Source of the DNA: Pseudomonas graminis
GTDB lineage: Bacteria > Pseudomonadota > Gammaproteobacteria > Pseudomonadales > Pseudomonadaceae
Reading direction: 5' to 3'
NCBI RefSeq assembly: GCF_001705435.1
Contig: NZ_MDEN01000060.1
Span: 186,001 to 250,000 of the forward strand
Length of the DNA: 64,000 nt
In this document: positions 2-7,606 of the stretch, piece after piece
Numbering within the stretch: position 1 is the stretch's first letter
How the letters are laid out: the number at the start of each line of letters is the position of its first letter
Position numbers and translations under genes: made by a program
Notes under the pieces: model-generated
Database searches by the model: none
What the model saw: only the letters and a program-made list of their open reading frames with translations
Told to the model about the DNA's origin: nothing

Positions 2-1231
2 GACCTGGCGATGTTTCCGGTTTACTACGACTTTTTGGAGTCCATCGGGAAGGAGAGATCCGATCTTGCGATGGAACTTCTCATTGACCACGAAGAGGTC
101 ATGGCTCCCTTTCTCATCGCACTGATGAGTGGCCTCTGGGCCAGTACGACGCCGAACCATCTTGAGGCAGTCGTGAAGCGTTGGATTGAAGCCGGAAAGC
201 ACCTGACCAGTATCGCCAAGTCATTGTATAAGGCGGGGGTTCCACGGCTAGAGGTGCTGACGGAGGTTGCCGGTCGCGCTGCTGCGCTCGATGACAAGAG
301 AGCCATGACCCAGGTTATGGGCGTGGCAGCGAGCCTTTATGCCGAAGGTGAGATGGGCGCCAAGTCTATCTTCATGCACACCCTGCGAGAGCTTGTTAAG
401 CGCGATGACGCCAGTTGGGCTAGCGAAATCTGGTTCAGCCGGGACTTCAAAGCGCTGCTTAGCACAATGGAGCAGAGTGAACGCGCTGAGGTGCTAGCCT
501 CTTTGACCGCGCTGCCAGAGCTGGACTATCAGGCTGAGGACATACTCTACGAAATTGGGAAGCACGATCTCCAAGCCCTTATCGACTTTTTGATTGGCCG
601 CCTGAAACACGCTCGAATGCTAGCCAAGCGAAAGCGTGAGACCAATGACAGCAGTCAAGATAGGTTTGAAGCCATTCCCTTCCAGCTCACCAAGCTGGAC
701 GAGCTGCTTGCGCAGGCGCCAGCGGCACTTCTGACGGCTATTCGAGTCGACTTCGACTTGGAAGATCGTTACATGTTCAGCTACCGCGGAGCGCGAACTG
801 TCAAATCGGTATTCCCGGAGTTTACGACCACGCTGGAAGAGCCGATTCTGAAGTACGTCAAGACGAGTAATGATGACGACATTGAGTTTGTCATTGGAAT
901 CCTGCGCGTCTATGAAGGCTCGCCCGCAATCTTGGATGTTTGCAAGGAGATCATCAAAGCAGTGCCTGAACACTCTAGGACTTGGAATGAAATTGCTGCC
1001 GCGATCGAGTCCACGGGCGTCGTTAGCGGCGAGTACGGCATGGTCGAAGCATATAACAGCAAACTGCAGCAGGTGTCTTGCTGGATGAGCGACGAGAACG
1101 AGCAAGTCCGGAGTTTTTCCAGGTGGCTTACAGAAGGCCTCCAGAGTCTGATTGAAAAGGAAAGTCAGCGCGCAGATCGAAGCTTAGAGCTTCGCAAATA
1201 CCAATACGGCAGCGACCCAAAAGAGGACTGA
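2..1231 (+). CDS. Unrecognised protein, C-terminal part (partial)
   Basis: The frame is already open at the first bases of the window (three codons precede the first ATG at 11), so this is probably the C-terminal part of a longer protein that starts outside. The 406 visible residues are leucine- and alanine-rich, predicted largely helical, with no signal peptide or membrane segment, as in HEAT/TPR-like repeat regions of large defence ATPases. I recognise no catalytic motif. It ends 197 bases before hamA on the same strand and shares its lower GC content, so it may be another accessory defence gene. Function unknown. Confidence 0.6.
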   Translation, partial: DLAMFPVYYDFLESIGKERSDLAMELLIDHEEVMAPFLIALMSGLWASTTPNHLEAVVKRWIEAGKHLTSIAKSLYKAGVPRLEVLTEVAGRAAALDDKRAMTQVMGVAASLYAEGEMGAKSIFMHTLRELVKRDDASWASEIWFSRDFKALLSTMEQSERAEVLASLTALPELDYQAEDILYEIGKHDLQALIDFLIGRLKHARMLAKRKRETNDSSQDRFEAIPFQLTKLDELLAQAPAALLTAIRVDFDLEDRYMFSYRGARTVKSVFPEFTTTLEEPILKYVKTSNDDDIEFVIGILRVYEGSPAILDVCKEIIKAVPEHSRTWNEIAAAIESTGVVSGEYGMVEAYNSKLQQVSCWMSDENEQVRSFSRWLTEGLQSLIEKESQRADRSLELRKYQYGSDPKED

Positions 1232-1428
1232 GAGTGGCTCAAGGCAGCTGAAAAACCTGCCGATCTAGTGATAAGGCAGTGAATGTGCCAGAGGCGGCGA
1301 CTCGAATGATCTCAAACTGGTTTTAAGTGTTTGTGCGCTAGCGAGTCCGTGGACTAAGGAAGCGCGGGCGGTTACATTTGCTGCTAATACCCGTCTGAAG
1401 GCAGCCGGGTAGCTGCCATGGAGGCCAC

Positions 1429-2379
1429 TTGTCAACCATCACTCCGATCGATCTCGAATCTGCTCTTACAGGAGATCCAGAAGCGCTTGAGGTTCACCTT
1501 GAGCTCGTAGAACGTGACGTGCTCATTGACGGACATTTAGTCAAGATTCACTGCCACTGCCTTTCGGTGGATGGTAACGGCCGTGTTCAACCACGTCGGT
1601 TAGCAGAGTTCATGCGGAACGCCGTTGCTGATTATGCGATCCCGCGCTCGAAGCTCGCTGAGGCGAAAGCGCGAGACCTTAGGTTCAACAGCACCGAGGC
1701 AGTCACCGAGCTCGTTGAGCGGGCCAAGCGCTCGTTTACTGATTTGACGAACACCGGCGAAGGTGGAGAGATGCTGCTGTTTCTGCTGGCGGAGCGTTTC
1801 CTCAAGCTGCCACAGATTCTCTGCAAGATGGATCTCAAGACGGATAATCGTATGCACTATCACGGCGCGGATGGAGTGTATGCGGGTGTGACACCAGAAG
1901 GTATCTTGAAACTCTACTGGGGCGAATCGAAAGTTTATGGGGATGCGAGTTCTGCGATTCGCGACTGTTTCAATTCCCTCGCCCCCTTCCTGATCGAGGC
2001 CGAACACGAAGAGGCGGAACGGGAAAGTGATCTGATACTCCTGAGTGACAAGGCTGACCTAAGTAATCCAGCACTCACCGATGCGCTCAAAAAGTATTTT
2101 GATAAGTCGTCGGTTATGTCTAAACGGGTCCAGTATTGCGGTGTCGCCCTTGTGGGCTTCGACGTACCGTTCTATCCCAAAGGAGATGCGAAAGGGGTTG
2201 CGGAAGAGATCGTTAAGGCATCCCGCGCGGAACTGACTAATTGGAGTAAAAGCATCGGGAATCGGCTTAAGCTTGAGAAGCTTGAGCAGATGGAAATTGA
2301 GGTGCTCTGCGTACCTCTGCCGTCGGCCGAAGGTTTCCGCGCCGCATTCCTCAAGGCGATGGGGATTAAGGACGAATGA
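1429..2379 (+). CDS. hamA: Hachiman defence nuclease HamA (DUF1837)
   Basis: A 316-residue DUF1837 protein, the nuclease subunit of the Hachiman anti-phage system. The pattern expected of the HamA nuclease fold is visible: GEGGEM at residues 110-115 (Glu114), Asp148 in HGADGVY and Glu166/Lys168 in GESK. In known systems HamA sits on the helicase HamB and is released to degrade DNA when HamB senses damaged or phage DNA. The start is TTG, chosen because a strong GGAGG lies just upstream at 1420-1424. The stop overlaps the hamB start (ATGA at 2376-2379). The gene looks intact, but its partner is truncated, so normal control of the nuclease is doubtful. Confidence 0.88.
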   Translation: MSTITPIDLESALTGDPEALEVHLELVERDVLIDGHLVKIHCHCLSVDGNGRVQPRRLAEFMRNAVADYAIPRSKLAEAKARDLRFNSTEAVTELVERAKRSFTDLTNTGEGGEMLLFLLAERFLKLPQILCKMDLKTDNRMHYHGADGVYAGVTPEGILKLYWGESKVYGDASSAIRDCFNSLAPFLIEAEHEEAERESDLILLSDKADLSNPALTDALKKYFDKSSVMSKRVQYCGVALVGFDVPFYPKGDAKGVAEEIVKASRAELTNWSKSIGNRLKLEKLEQMEIEVLCVPLPSAEGFRAAFLKAMGIKDE

Positions 2380-2972
2380 GCCTCGCCAACCTCCAATCGT
2401 GGCTTCTCCAAGAAGGTATTCGGGAAGATCTCGATGCGGTCACTCGATTCACCGTGCGCAACGAACTCGATAATTTGGCGTTCGACCTTTCCACATCGAC
2501 AGCTTCGGTTATTGATTGGCCCAGGTTGTTACTCGCTGGTAGCATTTTGGCGCGATCCGATCAAAGGGGCGATCAAGAAGCAGCGCTCCGAATTGCAACT
2601 GCTGCAATTTCATTGACGGACGATCAGGGACTCAAAGACGCAGGTGCGGTACTTTTGGGCAAGCTCTCAAACTTCCGGGCTATGGCATTAGCCACTGATC
2701 GGGGCTTGGTGGAATCCGGCCTTGAAGGACGGTTGGGTGTTGCTTTGCGCCTCGAAGCTCAGCGTCGTGAAATGGACCGTTCCATCCTTGTGCAATCTAG
2801 CGGCGCCTGGCTACAAGTAAATGACTTTCAGCAACGCTTTTGGATCAATGCGGCCGGTGACCGCTGGCTTTCAGCATCAGCACCTACTGCCTCTGGCAAG
2901 ACGTTTCTTGTACTTCAGTGGCTGATCGACCAAGTGATTACGGGCGAGACTCGGGTACCGTCACCCCCGTAG
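2376..2972 (+). pseudogene. hamB: Truncated Hachiman helicase HamB (N-terminal fragment)
   Basis: This is the start of a superfamily 2 helicase, translationally coupled to hamA. It has a Q-motif-like FQQRFW near residue 151 and a Walker A motif APTASGKT at residues 169-176, followed by LVLQWLIDQVITGETR. HamB proteins normally run to many hundreds of residues with further helicase motifs. Here the frame stops after 198 residues, with no Walker B/DExH motif, arginine finger or C-terminal half. The last codons (VPSPP) appear to be read-through into the 3' end of a converging gene. The fragment cannot work as a helicase. The break lies next to an integrase module. Confidence 0.85.
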
Positions 2973-3231
2973 ACTCAAGCGCTTGCAAAGCCGTAAGCAA
3001 CTCTGCGGCGCTTGATCCTAGGTGACTGACTAACGAAACAATCAATACGTCTCCCTCTCTCGCAAACCTGAGTAGCTCAACAAAGCCAGGTCGCTCAAGT
3101 GCCGCAACAGATGCCATCGATGTCATGTCTGCAAACCATTGGACAGCATGATGAGAGTCCCCGATAACCTCAAATTGAGGCATGGCTTCTTCGCCGTCCG
3201 TACCAACAAAGAAATAGGCAAGCGTCTTCAT
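2938..3231 (-). pseudogene. Degenerate serine-recombinase N-terminal fragment
   Basis: A 97-residue product resembling the N-terminal catalytic domain of resolvase/invertase-type serine recombinases: a first strand MKTLAYFFVG, then ERPGFVELLRFAREGDVLIVSLVSHLG (split here: ERPGFVELL, AREGDVLIVS, HLGSSAAELLTAL), and LESTGVTV. The usual GYxRVSTxxQ segment with the catalytic serine reads YFFVGTDGEE, so the nucleophile is gone. The frame ends where family members continue into the FRSL segment and DNA-binding domain. Its ATG overlaps the TGA of the AlpA gene upstream (ATGA), indicating coupling. It converges on hamB, and both genes end in the same few bases. Some Pseudomonas elements carry similar short proteins, so a retained non-catalytic role is possible. 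Confidence 0.55.
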
Positions 3232-3473
3232 AGCACCCCTCCTATTGCCTGAACACTGCACGAGGAAGCGCCAGCAATGCGATCCTCGACCCACCTCTCG
3301 ACTGCGAGGGAGTCCCAGCCCACAGCCCTTGGGCCCAGCTGAATTGATCTTGGGAAACGGGCTTGATTCATGAGGTTGTATATGTGAGCCCGCTTGAATC
3401 CAGTGCGGAACTCCACGTCTGGGAGTCGCAAAATACGGCGGCTCGGTGATGACTCGTTTGTAGAGATACTCAT
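3228..3473 (-). CDS. AlpA-family regulator (excisionase-like)
   Basis: An 81-residue DNA-binding protein of the AlpA/phage regulatory family. The MerR-like winged helix is recognisable in ILRLPDVEFRTGFKRAHIYN followed by LGPRAVGWDSLAVERWVEDR. AlpA proteins activate integrase or excision functions of P4-like integrative elements. The start at 3473 is supported by AAGGAG six bases upstream; the longer frame further up has no such site. It lies in the same orientation as the integrase, with one gene between them, and is coupled to the recombinase fragment downstream. Confidence 0.85.
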   Translation of the reverse strand: MSISTNESSPSRRILRLPDVEFRTGFKRAHIYNLMNQARFPRSIQLGPRAVGWDSLAVERWVEDRIAGASSCSVQAIGGVL

Positions 3474-3565
3474 TGCTTGCTCCTTGGCGCTAATTGGCCG
3501 TGTTTGGAAGCTGCAATGTAGTGAGAGGACCGGGCTCCAAGATCCAATTGAGGTAAGGCAAAACC

Positions 3566-4213
3566 TCATTTGGTAGGATCAGGCACGATGGAAATAGCTG
3601 CCATGTCGAAAAACTTCTTAATAGTCCCCTTTGAAGGTAGCGCAACCCTTGCTAGTGGCGCTGCTGTACTCAGCACTTCGTAAGCAGCATAAGGCTTTCC
3701 GACATTCAAACCTGCAAGGTGTGCCAGTACCGCGATTATGGCGCTAACGCTCGCCTTTTCTTTGGTGTTCAGATCGTAAGTCTCAGGGATCACACCATTT
3801 ATGATTTCCGCCAGCGCAGCGATATCGGATGGTCTGAATGCCAGATCACCACTTTTCACATCTACGAGCGCGTGCCATACCCGAGTCACCTCCTCAAAGC
3901 TGTCATCGTCTCGAAAAACAGGGCCGGCTAGCGTGAGAGAAACCGGGACACCGGCCTGAGCTAATCGGACAGGTTGGATGTCGAGGATTTTTTGGACGCC
4001 GGCCTCCCAAACGGATTCAGGTTCATCGCCAGGCTCCCCGGAAACCTGTGTTAACCCTTGCGCTCCTATGAGCCTACTGTATGCAGTGCAGTGTCCTTGC
4101 TCACACTGACTTAGTAGGTCCTCTTCTGTCATGGGGAGCTTTGTCATTGCCCTGAGGTTTTCCAGAGCTTGGGTTACGGTGAGAAATGATAGATGTGCGT
4201 GATCTGGGCGCAT
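3566..4213 (-). CDS. Unknown protein of the integrative element
   Basis: A 215-residue soluble protein without signal peptide or transmembrane segment. I recognise no family. It starts at ATG 4213 with a GAGAG-type ribosome binding site; an upstream TTG at 4228 is less likely. It lies 40 bases downstream of the integrase gene and upstream of alpA, all on the minus strand, so it probably belongs to the same mobile module. The C-terminal half is helix-rich and alanine-rich. No function is assigned. Confidence 0.65.
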   Translation of the reverse strand: MRPDHAHLSFLTVTQALENLRAMTKLPMTEEDLLSQCEQGHCTAYSRLIGAQGLTQVSGEPGDEPESVWEAGVQKILDIQPVRLAQAGVPVSLTLAGPVFRDDDSFEEVTRVWHALVDVKSGDLAFRPSDIAALAEIINGVIPETYDLNTKEKASVSAIIAVLAHLAGLNVGKPYAAYEVLSTAAPLARVALPSKGTIKKFFDMAAISIVPDPTK

Positions 4214-4253
4214 GGCGTCTCTCGTCAATTAAGTTGGGGATTGGAGGATCGCT

Positions 4254-5489
4254 TCAATTAGCAAAGGCTTGATGTTCGGCAGTCGGCATCGTTGAGGCGT
4301 AATTAGCCCAGTCCTGCATGAGACCACGCCGCTTTTCAAGAAAGTCAGTCCGAGAGTATGCCCCCTCGGTTTGATTGCGCTCGTCATGCGCCAGCGCCAT
4401 CTCACAGACCTCCCGAGAATGACCCGTGTTTTCCGCAGCCCAATCCCGGAATGTTGATCGAAACCCATGACGGGTAATGTCAGCGTGCTTCATTCGATGC
4501 AAAAGTGTACGCACAGCATTGGCATGCATGACACCGCTCTTGCCTCTCCCAGGAAAAAGGAATGAGCTGCCCTCAATTCGCGGGATTTTGGCGAGCATCT
4601 TCATGACCTGCTCGGAGAGTGGGATTGCAAATGCCTTCCGCGCCTTCATGCGTTCAGCCGACAGCAACCAGATCTTAGAATCAAAATCGAACTCCTCCCA
4701 ACATGCAAACCGGATCATGTGAGCCCGCGCACCAGTCAATATCATTAGCTGAGCAGCAAACGATGGGAGGGTGTCATCCTTCCGGAGATTCGCCATCAAC
4801 GCGGGCAGCTCCGACCACTTCATAGCGGCAAAATGCTGGCGCTGCCGGGCCGTTTTCTTCGCATCTCTGGAGAGGAGATGCTCCAAGTTCCCCCGCCAAC
4901 GCGCTGGATTCTCCCCCGCTCGCAAGCCGCGCGCTTTTGCAGCATCGAGCACCTGCTCGATTTGCCCCCGAACCTCGTCCCCCGTGCGAGTTTTTTCACC
5001 CCATATAGGATTCAAAATCTTTTGCAGATGGCCCACCTCGACCGCCTCAGCAGGAAGGTCACCGATCAATGGAAACGCATATTTCTCCATTTTTCGTACC
5101 CACCCCTTTCGCCACTTCTCTGAGTGATTTCCGCTATGCGCTTGGTGGTAATCAAGAGCAAGGCTTTTGAACGAATGACGCTTGGCCTCAGCAGCCCGCG
5201 CTACAGCTCTGATAGTTTCGCGTGCGACCTCTCGCTCCGATAGCGGGTCTGCGCCTGTATTCAATACTCGGCGTGCCTCAAGAGCATTTGCACGAGCATC
5301 AGGCAGGCCGATGTCTGGATAAGACCCCAGCCCCATATCACGGGACTTGCCGTTCCACTTGTAGCGAAAGATCCAGCTTCCCTTGCCATCAACGTTGTAC
5401 TTGAAATACAGGTTTCCTCCGTCACCGGCGTAGCCTCGTTTACCGGATTTCAACAACCCGGCGATTCCCTTGACTGTCAGCTTAACCAT
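4254..5489 (-). CDS. int: P4-type tyrosine integrase
   Basis: A 411-residue site-specific recombinase of the P4/CP4-57 type: N-terminal arm-binding DUF4102 domain (residues 1-85, including NLYFKYNVDGKGSWIFRYKW), SAM-like core-binding domain (about 105-195) and C-terminal catalytic domain. All catalytic residues are present: Arg255 in TGAR, Lys284, His341 and Arg344 in HGFR, His368 and Tyr378. The enzyme is likely active. Its reading direction puts the element body on its left, where alpA and hamA/hamB lie, and an attachment site would be expected in the 5490-5808 gap. Such integrases often use tRNA 3' ends, but no tRNA is visible there. Confidence 0.93.
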   Translation of the reverse strand: MVKLTVKGIAGLLKSGKRGYAGDGGNLYFKYNVDGKGSWIFRYKWNGKSRDMGLGSYPDIGLPDARANALEARRVLNTGADPLSEREVARETIRAVARAAEAKRHSFKSLALDYHQAHSGNHSEKWRKGWVRKMEKYAFPLIGDLPAEAVEVGHLQKILNPIWGEKTRTGDEVRGQIEQVLDAAKARGLRAGENPARWRGNLEHLLSRDAKKTARQRQHFAAMKWSELPALMANLRKDDTLPSFAAQLMILTGARAHMIRFACWEEFDFDSKIWLLSAERMKARKAFAIPLSEQVMKMLAKIPRIEGSSFLFPGRGKSGVMHANAVRTLLHRMKHADITRHGFRSTFRDWAAENTGHSREVCEMALAHDERNQTEGAYSRTDFLEKRRGLMQDWANYASTMPTAEHQAFAN

Positions 5490-5808
5490 ATATCCACCAG
5501 AGGCTCAGCCCATACTCGGGCCCATACCAAGAACGGTAGATGATGTTGGCGGGCACTGGCAAGCAATAGACGTAAATAAGCACCAAAGCCTCTATTTACA
5601 GGCATGTTATGCGGCGCCTCCAGATGATTGCAGACTTTGATGGACGCTAGAAAAGCCGCCCACAAGCCGGCTTTTTAACTTCCCATGAATACGTCGAACC
5701 GCTAATCCACGCGGCGCCTCCGCGCGCGCGTCAATCGGCAATCAATGGAATGAGCGCTTTGATCAACGAAGCAGACAACCGCCTCCGCTTTACTACAGGA
5801 AGTTCATC
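5490..5808. other. Intergenic gap between integrase and Thoeris operon
   Basis: No convincing gene. It contains an inverted repeat GTAAATA (5572-5578) / TATTTAC (5593-5599), an 11-base direct repeat GCGGCGCCTCC (5611-5621 and 5711-5721), a terminator-like hairpin at 5651-5676, and a CG-rich run around 5717-5731. The integrase promoter, arm sites and one end of the element are expected here, but no tRNA end was found. A ThsB ribosome binding site (ACAGGAAG) ends the gap. Confidence 0.5.
5651..5676. terminator. Terminator-like hairpin upstream of Thoeris
   Basis: AAAAGCCG at 5651-5658 pairs with CGGCTTTT at 5668-5675, followed by another T. The A/T-flanked GC stem could work on either strand. 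It may insulate the Thoeris operon from the left, or be the remaining terminator of a gene that once stood at the integration point. Confidence 0.55.
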
Positions 5809-6318
5809 ATGAGTTATCGCAACAAGACTTACATCGCCTTCGCCAGTGAAGACATCAAGCATTACTGGCTGATGAAAGCCTGGAAACAGAACGAGAGAAT
5901 CGACTTCGACTTTTTCAATGCCCATGACTTGTTCGAAGCACGGGACAGCAGTTCGCCCGAGACCATCAAACGCCGACTGCGCGAGCGCCTCAACAACACC
6001 AAACAAGTCATCTTTCTGGGCAGCGAAGATGGCCGTCGCAAAGGCGGCGACGGGGATTCTTTTCTTGCTTATGAAATCGAGGTGGTTCTCGAACTCGATC
6101 TTCCTATTGTCATCGCCAATCTCTGCCAGAGCAGAAACATCGTCATGGATAACATTCCCCAGCCGCTGATCGATCAAAAACACTTCAACGTTTCGGTGTC
6201 TTTCCAGCCCAAAATCATTCAGTACGCGCTGGACAACTACGTCGAAGGCTACGCGAAGAGCGAGATGCAGGGTCCCCATCGGTATGTCGGGAGAATCTAC
6301 AACGAGCTGGGCATGTGA
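5809..6318 (+). CDS. thsB: Thoeris TIR-like signal-producing protein ThsB
   Basis: A 169-residue TIR-like protein of the ThsB family (PF08937). The first strand and alpha region KTYIAFASEDIKHYW, the FDFFNAHD segment and SFLAYEIEVVLELDLPIVIA are typical; Glu89 in YEIE is the likely catalytic glutamate. On infection ThsB proteins convert NAD into a nucleotide signal; type II systems paired with a membrane-macro ThsA are reported to make histidine-ADP-ribose. The start has the site ACAGGAAG. The stop TGA overlaps the thsA ATG by one base. ThsB first, ThsA second, then a HIT gene: one tightly packed operon. Confidence 0.88.
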   Translation: MSYRNKTYIAFASEDIKHYWLMKAWKQNERIDFDFFNAHDLFEARDSSSPETIKRRLRERLNNTKQVIFLGSEDGRRKGGDGDSFLAYEIEVVLELDLPIVIANLCQSRNIVMDNIPQPLIDQKHFNVSVSFQPKIIQYALDNYVEGYAKSEMQGPHRYVGRIYNELGM

Positions 6319-7169
6319 TGGCCATTCTTCAGGATATGCGGACGTGGCGCTTCTGGCGCCACTTTCTGGTGGCGTTGTTCGCCTGCGTCGGCGGACTGTC
6401 GACGATCATGCAGACCTTCAACGTCATTTACCCCGGTAGCCACGCAATGGAAGGCTTCGGCATCCTGATAGCGATCATCGTGGCGTCTGTTTCCGTTGCG
6501 CTTTTCAAAGCATGGCCGCGCCCGATTGCCGAGGAATACAACGCGCCGAAAACGCGGATCACCATCGTGCCCGGCGACCTTCTTAAGGAAGACGGCCATC
6601 TGGTGATCGGCACCAATGACACCTTCGACACGGAAACGCCGAACATCATTGCCACCTCCAGTCTGCAGGGCCAGGCATTGCAGGTGCTCTACGGCGGCGA
6701 CCTGAAAGAACTTGATCGTCATCTGGACGACGCCCTGGTCAACACGCCCTGCGTCGGCACACTCAACAAGCCAGGGAAGCACGTGCAATACGGCGTCGGC
6801 ACCATCGCCACGCTCAAGCACGCGCACCGGCTGATCTTCTTCCTGGCCTACTGCGAAATGGACGCCCAGAACGTCGCGCGCTCCACGCCAGACAAAGTGT
6901 GGAAAGGCTTGCTCGCGCTGTGGGCCGAAGTGTCCCGACGCGGCAACGGCGGGACGATCTCTATCCCGGTGATCGGCGGCGGACAGGCGCGACTGTCCAG
7001 CGTGCTGCCCGCCCAGGACGCCATCCGCTTCACCCTGCTGTCATTCATGTTCGCCTCCCGCAACTCGAAGGTCTGCGACGAACTGCGCATCGTCGTGCGC
7101 CCCGACGACTATCGAAAACTTGATCGTCTGGAGCTGCAGTCCTTCCTCTCGTCATTGAGGTCATCATGA
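6318..7169 (+). CDS. thsA: Type II Thoeris effector ThsA (two TM helices plus macro domain)
   Basis: A 283-residue effector. Two hydrophobic helices (about residues 10-30 and 45-65) precede a macro-like domain of the DUF6430/ThsA type: TRITIVPGDLLKEDGHLVIG, a glycine-rich HVQYGVGTIATL and ISIPVIGGGQARL. In type II Thoeris this membrane protein binds the ThsB-made signal through its macro domain and kills the infected cell, presumably by membrane damage. ATG 6318 is chosen because it overlaps the thsB stop as TGATG; a GTG three bases earlier is possible. The stop overlaps the next start (ATGA at 7166-7169). Confidence 0.87.
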   Translation: MAILQDMRTWRFWRHFLVALFACVGGLSTIMQTFNVIYPGSHAMEGFGILIAIIVASVSVALFKAWPRPIAEEYNAPKTRITIVPGDLLKEDGHLVIGTNDTFDTETPNIIATSSLQGQALQVLYGGDLKELDRHLDDALVNTPCVGTLNKPGKHVQYGVGTIATLKHAHRLIFFLAYCEMDAQNVARSTPDKVWKGLLALWAEVSRRGNGGTISIPVIGGGQARLSSVLPAQDAIRFTLLSFMFASRNSKVCDELRIVVRPDDYRKLDRLELQSFLSSLRSS

Positions 7170-7606
7170 GCGCGAACACCAGCCTGGACATGCCGGACAA
7201 CTCCGACTGTGCGTTCTGCGCGTACCTGAAAGGCAAACGGCCCTACACCATCCTCTCCTGCACAACGCACACCGCGACTTTCGTGACCCGCGAACAACGG
7301 GGTCATCCGCACGTGCTGGTGCTGCCCCAACGCCACGTGCCTTCGTTGCTGGAAATGACCGACGAGGAAGTGGCGGCGGTGGCGGTTGAAGTGCGCAATG
7401 CGGCGAGGCTGATTGAAAAGGCGTATGGGAAAGCCGGGATTGCGGTCTGGCAGAACAACGGCGTGCCGGCGGGACAGGCGATCGGGCATGTGCACTTTCA
7501 TGTGGCGGGGACGCTGGAGGGCGGGGGGACGGAGTTTGGGGAGGTGCAGGAGATCTCGGTGATGGAGACGGATGAGATTGCGCGGCGGTTGCTGGAGGCG
7601 AGATAG
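7166..7606 (+). CDS. HIT-family nucleotide hydrolase, third gene of the Thoeris operon
   Basis: A 146-residue HIT (histidine triad) protein. Zinc-type cysteines lie at 15 and 18 (CAFC), the substrate loop at GHPHVLVLP (47-55), and the triad HVHFHV at 108-113, with His110 as likely nucleophile. HIT enzymes cleave phosphoramidates and dinucleotide polyphosphates such as AMP-NH2 or ApppA. The start overlaps the thsA stop (ATGA), so it is made together with ThsA and ThsB. Inference: it may remove or trim the ADP-ribose-type Thoeris signal and so set the alarm threshold. A housekeeping HIT gene caught next to the operon is the alternative. The last 100 bases are extremely G-rich. Confidence 0.9.
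   Translation: MSANTSLDMPDNSDCAFCAYLKGKRPYTILSCTTHTATFVTREQRGHPHVLVLPQRHVPSLLEMTDEEVAAVAVEVRNAARLIEKAYGKAGIAVWQNNGVPAGQAIGHVHFHVAGTLEGGGTEFGEVQEISVMETDEIARRLLEAR

Follow-up and report, generated by a model that had tools for sequence, protein, structure and literature searches.

The locus at positions 1429-2972 of the window (the 64,000 nucleotides of the Pseudomonas graminis draft genome that were analysed; G000:C57:186001-250000) is, judged from its sequence, the remnant of a type II Hachiman (hamABC) operon. It is very probably a decayed operon that is now idle and that is carried on an integrated island of about 10.5 kb. It looks like ordinary decay of a known defence system that forms cargo of the island, and the remnant is probably of recent age. 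The source assembly is a draft of 5.96 Mb in 66 contigs, with completeness rated at 100%. The features of the island are given below, from left to right, in window coordinates unless another record is named.

G000:C57:181158-181186, left of the window: left att-like repeat, with 27 of 29 bases as in the right copy
L101 9367-11448 (C57): 693-aa island cargo gene, with a stretch resembling a PD-(D/E)XK nuclease motif by eye
L101 11892-12821 (C57): PIN-domain cargo gene, overlapping the 804-aa gene
L101 12818-15232, plus strand (3' part at window 2-1231): 804-aa island cargo gene upstream of hamA, with no assigned family
1429-2379, plus strand: hamA, complete, 316 aa, TTG start, D...GESK motif, GGAGG ribosome-binding site upstream
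2376-2957, plus strand: 5' stub of hamB, residues 1-194 of about 866, with the N-terminal helical region and Walker A
2955-2957, no strand: junction, where hamB homology stops and antisense resolvase-like homology starts without a spacer
2958-2972, plus strand: end of the cut hamB frame, a tail without homology together with its stop
2938-3231, minus strand: resolvase-like gene (PF00239), 97 aa, truncated at about residue 93, with a serine-recombinase motif that is degenerate by eye
3228-3569, minus strand: AlpA-family regulator (PF05930)
3566-4228, minus strand: protein without a significant Pfam match, next to the integrase, with a weakly similar partner in G376
4254-5489, minus strand: island tyrosine integrase, 411 aa; the G376 copy is 93% identical over residues 1-398
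5650-5678, plus strand: right att-like repeat, 29 bp

HamA (1429-2376) was matched near full length by the PADLOC HamA2 model (PDLC00196; residues 1-314 of 315, E 1.2e-153) and by the Pfam HamA family (PF08878; E 3.9e-66). D148, E166 and K168 were invariant across 29 aligned HamAs. Because the HamA sequence had no match among PDB chains (phmmer, up to E 1), an AlphaFold model was built (mean pLDDT 78.5) and compared by fold. Three PDB matches were obtained below E 0.001 (8zue_A, 8vx9_A and 8vxy_A), all of them E. coli Hachiman entries; at TM-scores of 0.41-0.49 by query length, their rank is clear and the fit modest. The protein thus has both the DUF1837 fold and the D...GEXK motif that mark a Hachiman HamA. 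The intact HamA described in the first-pass annotation is therefore upheld by the near full-length PADLOC and Pfam matches and by the kept nuclease motif.

The hamB open reading frame (2376-2972, 198 aa) starts four bases inside the end of hamA, overlapping its stop, and was matched by the PADLOC HamB2 model over residues 1-193 of 865 (PDLC00200; E 3.9e-79). Alignment with the closest relatives places the break at residue 194 (window 2957), where homology ends; the last four residues of the frame, PSPP, are an antisense reading of the next gene. The frame ends given in the first-pass annotation agree to the base, and the truncation that it reported is real. No complete HamB helicase adjoining hamA, as found in Hachiman, is present here. 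When residues 195-866 of the HamB of a relative were searched against the genome, two weak matches only were obtained (best E 0.0016, 30% identity). By position, the N-terminal helices of the stub would correspond to the HamA-binding NAH region of the published HamB, as described in the part of PMC12278908 covered. A model of the stub had a mean pLDDT of 68; averaged by block, pLDDT was 61-90 for residues 1-120 and poor past about residue 130, and a fold search of it against PDB gave nothing below E 0.001; no structural conclusion was drawn from the stub for these reasons.

The best PADLOC models, HamA2 and HamB2, place both proteins in the type II families. Type II Hachiman (HamA-HamB-HamC) is defined in the part of PMC8565338 covered, with a tested representative from Sphingopyxis witflariensis (NZ_NISJ01000011.1). 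The HamA of this representative (strain DSM 14551; L033) is 74% identical to that of the window, and the stub belongs to the same HamB2 family, but in the window hamB homology stops after residue 194 and no hamC was detected. The HamA fold and the D...GEXK motif are shared with type I (HamAB, E. coli ECOR31; PMC12278908, PDB 8vx9), from which the window locus differs in a HamA without a PDB sequence match and in the loss of the helicase.

A third gene is regularly present in the relatives. Plasmid records with a HamA match numbered 31, and in all five of those examined for a third gene, one annotated as DCL family or DUF3223 followed hamB; the third-gene products of two plasmid relatives were tested with PADLOC and were HamC2. 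Among genome loci with the end of hamB and more than 900 bases beyond (n=55), 53 had a hamC match no more than 1.5 kb past hamB. The match was partial in L052 (20 residues) and L054 (45 residues) and lay 1,358 bases on in L071; the two loci without one, L079 and L080, both have distant HamAs. The same query matched hamC in 4/4 intact relatives and gave no match in the genome of the window, so that the hamC (DUF3223) which in type II stands beside hamAB is missing here.

At the junction two convergent genes, hamB and the resolvase-like gene, both break off at a single position, where they have a few bases in common at most. The resolvase-like fragment had a match in 93 of 398 genomes of the genus (its own included), the best being in G621, where the gene order is integrase, unknown, AlpA, a 109-aa gene that is the counterpart of the fragment, and a complete 195-aa resolvase, followed by further genes. 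The 195-aa resolvase had no full-length match in the genome of the window; outside the junction gene the matches were partial and weak (best E 2.4e-5, contig 62). The same junction gave 0 matches in viral contigs, and window 1000-6000 had no megablast match among plasmids. The resolvase-like fragment had no match in phages and weak matches in 53 plasmid records, none covering 80% of the query. A scan of 1100-3600 for promoters and terminators returned no terminators and a single promoter-like site, which is on the opposite strand; this is no more than in shuffled sequences. The short resolvase-like gene (window 2938-3231; L115 636-1779) has a catalytic motif that is degenerate by eye and adjoins the complete resolvase in G621; it is possibly a paralogue of the island recombinase that is inactive but conserved.

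The island comprises the 693-aa gene, the PIN-domain gene, the 804-aa gene, hamA, the hamB stub and the integrase module. An empty site was found in G314: both flanks are 93% identical there, over 2,190 columns on the left and 2,253 on the right, and they meet at a single copy of the repeat; within the 10 kb of G314 examined, island sequence had no match. The tyrosine integrase, the direct repeats at both ends and the empty site of G314 together identify an integrative island. The 2.9-kb query was matched somewhere in 96 of the 194 genomes examined (its own included), in many through the repeat alone. Islands of the same genus in G376, G346 and G305 share a related integrase, the same att-like repeat and the left flank, and carry other cargo; that of G376 has a 1547-aa helicase-nuclease in place of the window cargo. 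The island of G621 has the same att-like repeat and a fuller integrase module, and its cargo also differs from that of the window. The 693-aa, PIN-domain and 804-aa genes had no PADLOC matches and are possible novel defence genes. Thoeris genes were noted at 5809-7606 by PADLOC (a TIR-like ThsB, a macro-domain ThsA and a HIT-family ThsC); they lie outside the island, since the right-flank match to G314 extends to about window 7901, a point near the end of the G314 piece compared.

The age of the break was assessed from protein change. The dN ratio of the hamB stub to hamA was 1.05-1.70 for the window against ten relatives, and the hamB/hamA ratio was 1.03-2.04 in six pairs without the window, two of which include L015, where hamB has a break at a point further downstream. 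At sites otherwise invariant among 11 sequences, changes found only in the window numbered three in hamA (0-12 for the others) and four in the stub (0-11 for the others). As the stub has no excess of protein change, the break in hamB is probably recent. An unrelaxed stub is no proof that hamA has been retained by selection, and the stub itself could be kept.

The dependence of HamA on HamB has been described for the type I system of E. coli. According to the passages of PMC12278908 covered, deletion of hamA or hamB, or mutation of the active site of either, abolishes defence; HamB constrains HamA; mutants of the HamA-HamB interface block function and leave cells viable; and HamA by itself is insoluble in vitro. 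The covered passages of the later PMC12799240, on protease-HamA fusions, do not touch on the case of HamA lacking HamB. The condition set in the first-pass annotation, that a surviving nuclease should be harmless only if HamA needs HamB for activity or is silent, is thus largely answered in print for type I, and by this dependence an orphan hamA is expected to be idle and tolerated. By analogy with type I, HamA without the HamB helicase could not be activated and the locus would give no Hachiman defence; the leftover nuclease would be tolerated and would be expected to decay. The dependence was measured in a distant type I system, not in type II.

The same state was found in relatives. From 71 hamA loci on genome contigs, nine without a complete hamA and four that end too early were removed, and 58 were scored. 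Full-length hamB, taken as a single tblastn stretch of more than 750 residues without a stop (a crude count), was present in 53 of the 58 loci; L065 was scored intact, though its hamB start may be damaged. The five loci with a broken hamB (L015, L022, L058, L071 and L072) all kept the HamA motif. Since the hamB breaks are of differing kinds, the state of intact hamA with broken hamB arose several times. Type II hamA was thus repeatedly met in intact form beside an incomplete hamB, which is what a need of HamA for HamB would lead one to expect. In L021, one of the four cut-off loci, the damage is the same as in L022; as the two loci are nearly identical, their shared break is uninformative on selection on hamA. 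A preferential sparing of hamA over hamB was considered and dropped, because hamB is 2.7 times longer and a search that starts from HamA is biased towards intact hamA genes. Four matches came from a HamB-led sample of 398 genomes, including the genome of the window, too few to compare breaks in hamA and hamB. L058 (10944-12311; Aurantiacibacter zhengii) has an intact hamA, a hamC match and a hamB frame of 460 aa without most of the helicase core, apparently shortened through in-frame deletions.

The simplest reading of the junction is a deletion in place: one event inside the island would have removed the 3' part of hamB, hamC and the resolvase genes that are present downstream in the relative. 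Joining of unrelated pieces at about 2957 by the assembler, in a strain that holds an intact hamABC, is highly improbable, even though the genome is a draft in 66 contigs and the join is known from one strain and from the assembly only. The remainder of hamB was not found elsewhere in the assembly, which makes a deletion likelier than a misassembly; nor was hamC found, in a genome rated 100% complete and with a hamC query that performed as it should in the control; and the two sides of the join belong to one coherent island, whose repeats match and whose empty site is seen in G314. The misassembly that the first-pass annotation had named as a possible refutation is accordingly disfavoured. Arrival of cargo that was already broken, through an illegitimate join that set hamA and a piece of hamB beside the integrase module, is a tentative alternative to which we assign a minor share of the probability. 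It would give the same junction, and G376, the closest relative by integrase, has different genes between the repeat and the integrase module. It fits as well because no related island with an intact hamABC beside this integrase was found, whereas a deletion in place takes one event only. The choice between deletion and broken arrival is less certain than the decay itself.

Very unlikely, too, is that HamA and the stub are kept as a functional pair, in which the stub would keep HamA soluble and silent or would answer another trigger. The helical N-terminal region retained in the stub contributes to HamA binding in the published HamB (PMC12278908, in the part covered), neither HamA nor the stub has an excess of protein change, and a shortened HamB frame is seen also in L058. 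However, a recent break accounts for the same conservation, helicase mutants of HamB lose defence in the covered part of the same paper, the broken forms differ among relatives as they do in decay, and confidence in the stub model is low (mean pLDDT 68), with no PDB match below E 0.001. Of the two outcomes offered in the first-pass annotation, a recent break fits the stub without acceleration, and nothing supports a HamA kept for a new use. Its overall interpretation stands in the Hachiman assignment, the intact HamA, the truncated HamB and the neighbouring integrase module, where the resolvase-like fragment, the AlpA gene, the gene at 3566-4228 and the tyrosine integrase adjoin hamB; the other use finds no support. 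The additional loss of hamC, the cut in the resolvase-like gene at the same point, the 10.5-kb island and the type II class had gone unnoticed in it.

The start codon of hamA was compared among relatives. CUG starts are rare in bacteria. In the window, TTG at 1429 is the sole possible start: the stretch from the preceding in-frame stop to this codon has no ATG, GTG or TTG, and codon 30 is the first candidate after it. Alignment from residue 1 covered 51 hamA genes, those of 50 loci and that of the window; genes that do not align over their first residues were set aside. In these 51 the start column held CTG in 36 (the tested S. witflariensis hamA, L033, has CTG), TTG in 13, GTG in one and ATT in one. 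After removal of sequences at least 95% alike (n=38) the counts were CTG 25, TTG 11, GTG 1 and ATT 1, and none was ATG; hamB starts in the same set were ATG in 34 and GTG in three. Leucine codons in the start column were CTG or TTG in 36/36; at 26 other columns of conserved leucine the share of these two codons was 0.11-0.63. No usual in-frame start lay upstream in 20 of the 38 genes (12 with CTG and 8 with TTG), and in the CTG genes of L071, L043 and L041 the next usual start was codon 19, 31 and 46, respectively, within conserved sequence. Two of the three CTG hamA genes in the five plasmid records examined are annotated from CTG; that of Mameliella is annotated eight codons later.

Other counts, however, run contrary to a non-AUG start. 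An in-frame ATG, GTG or TTG was present upstream in 18 of the 38 genes, in some only two to four codons off, and of the 12 CTG genes without an upstream start a usual start was found at codon 8 in six and at codon 4 in one. In 62 hamA genes taken unfiltered and with the window excluded, the extrapolated start was ATG in eight, GTG in two and another codon in four. Seven of the eight ATG-start genes are 61-63% identical to the window hamA, the eighth being the distant L080 (no tree was built), and the Bartonella plasmid hamA also has an ATG start. No mention of a non-AUG hamA start was found in the PADLOC or Cell main texts, or in the entries of a literature look-up.

We give about an even chance to the proposal that a conserved CUG or UUG start in most type II hamA genes, next to hamB genes with AUG, keeps the nuclease scarce and rarely in excess of the helicase, and that this brake and the dependence on HamB together explain the survival of hamA after loss of hamB in the window and in the five other loci. 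The start codon could be a brake on nuclease synthesis, and in the window the TTG probably holds HamA synthesis low too. If true, this would be a simple and testable way for a cell to keep a suicide nuclease scarce.

By sequence, the PDB chain closest to type II HamB was 9wh1_B (E 2.5e-45), an 853-aa entry under the name 'DNA polymerase theta (Helicase domain only)'. It outmatches the other polymerase theta entries by a wide margin and is possibly a bacterial HamB-like protein.
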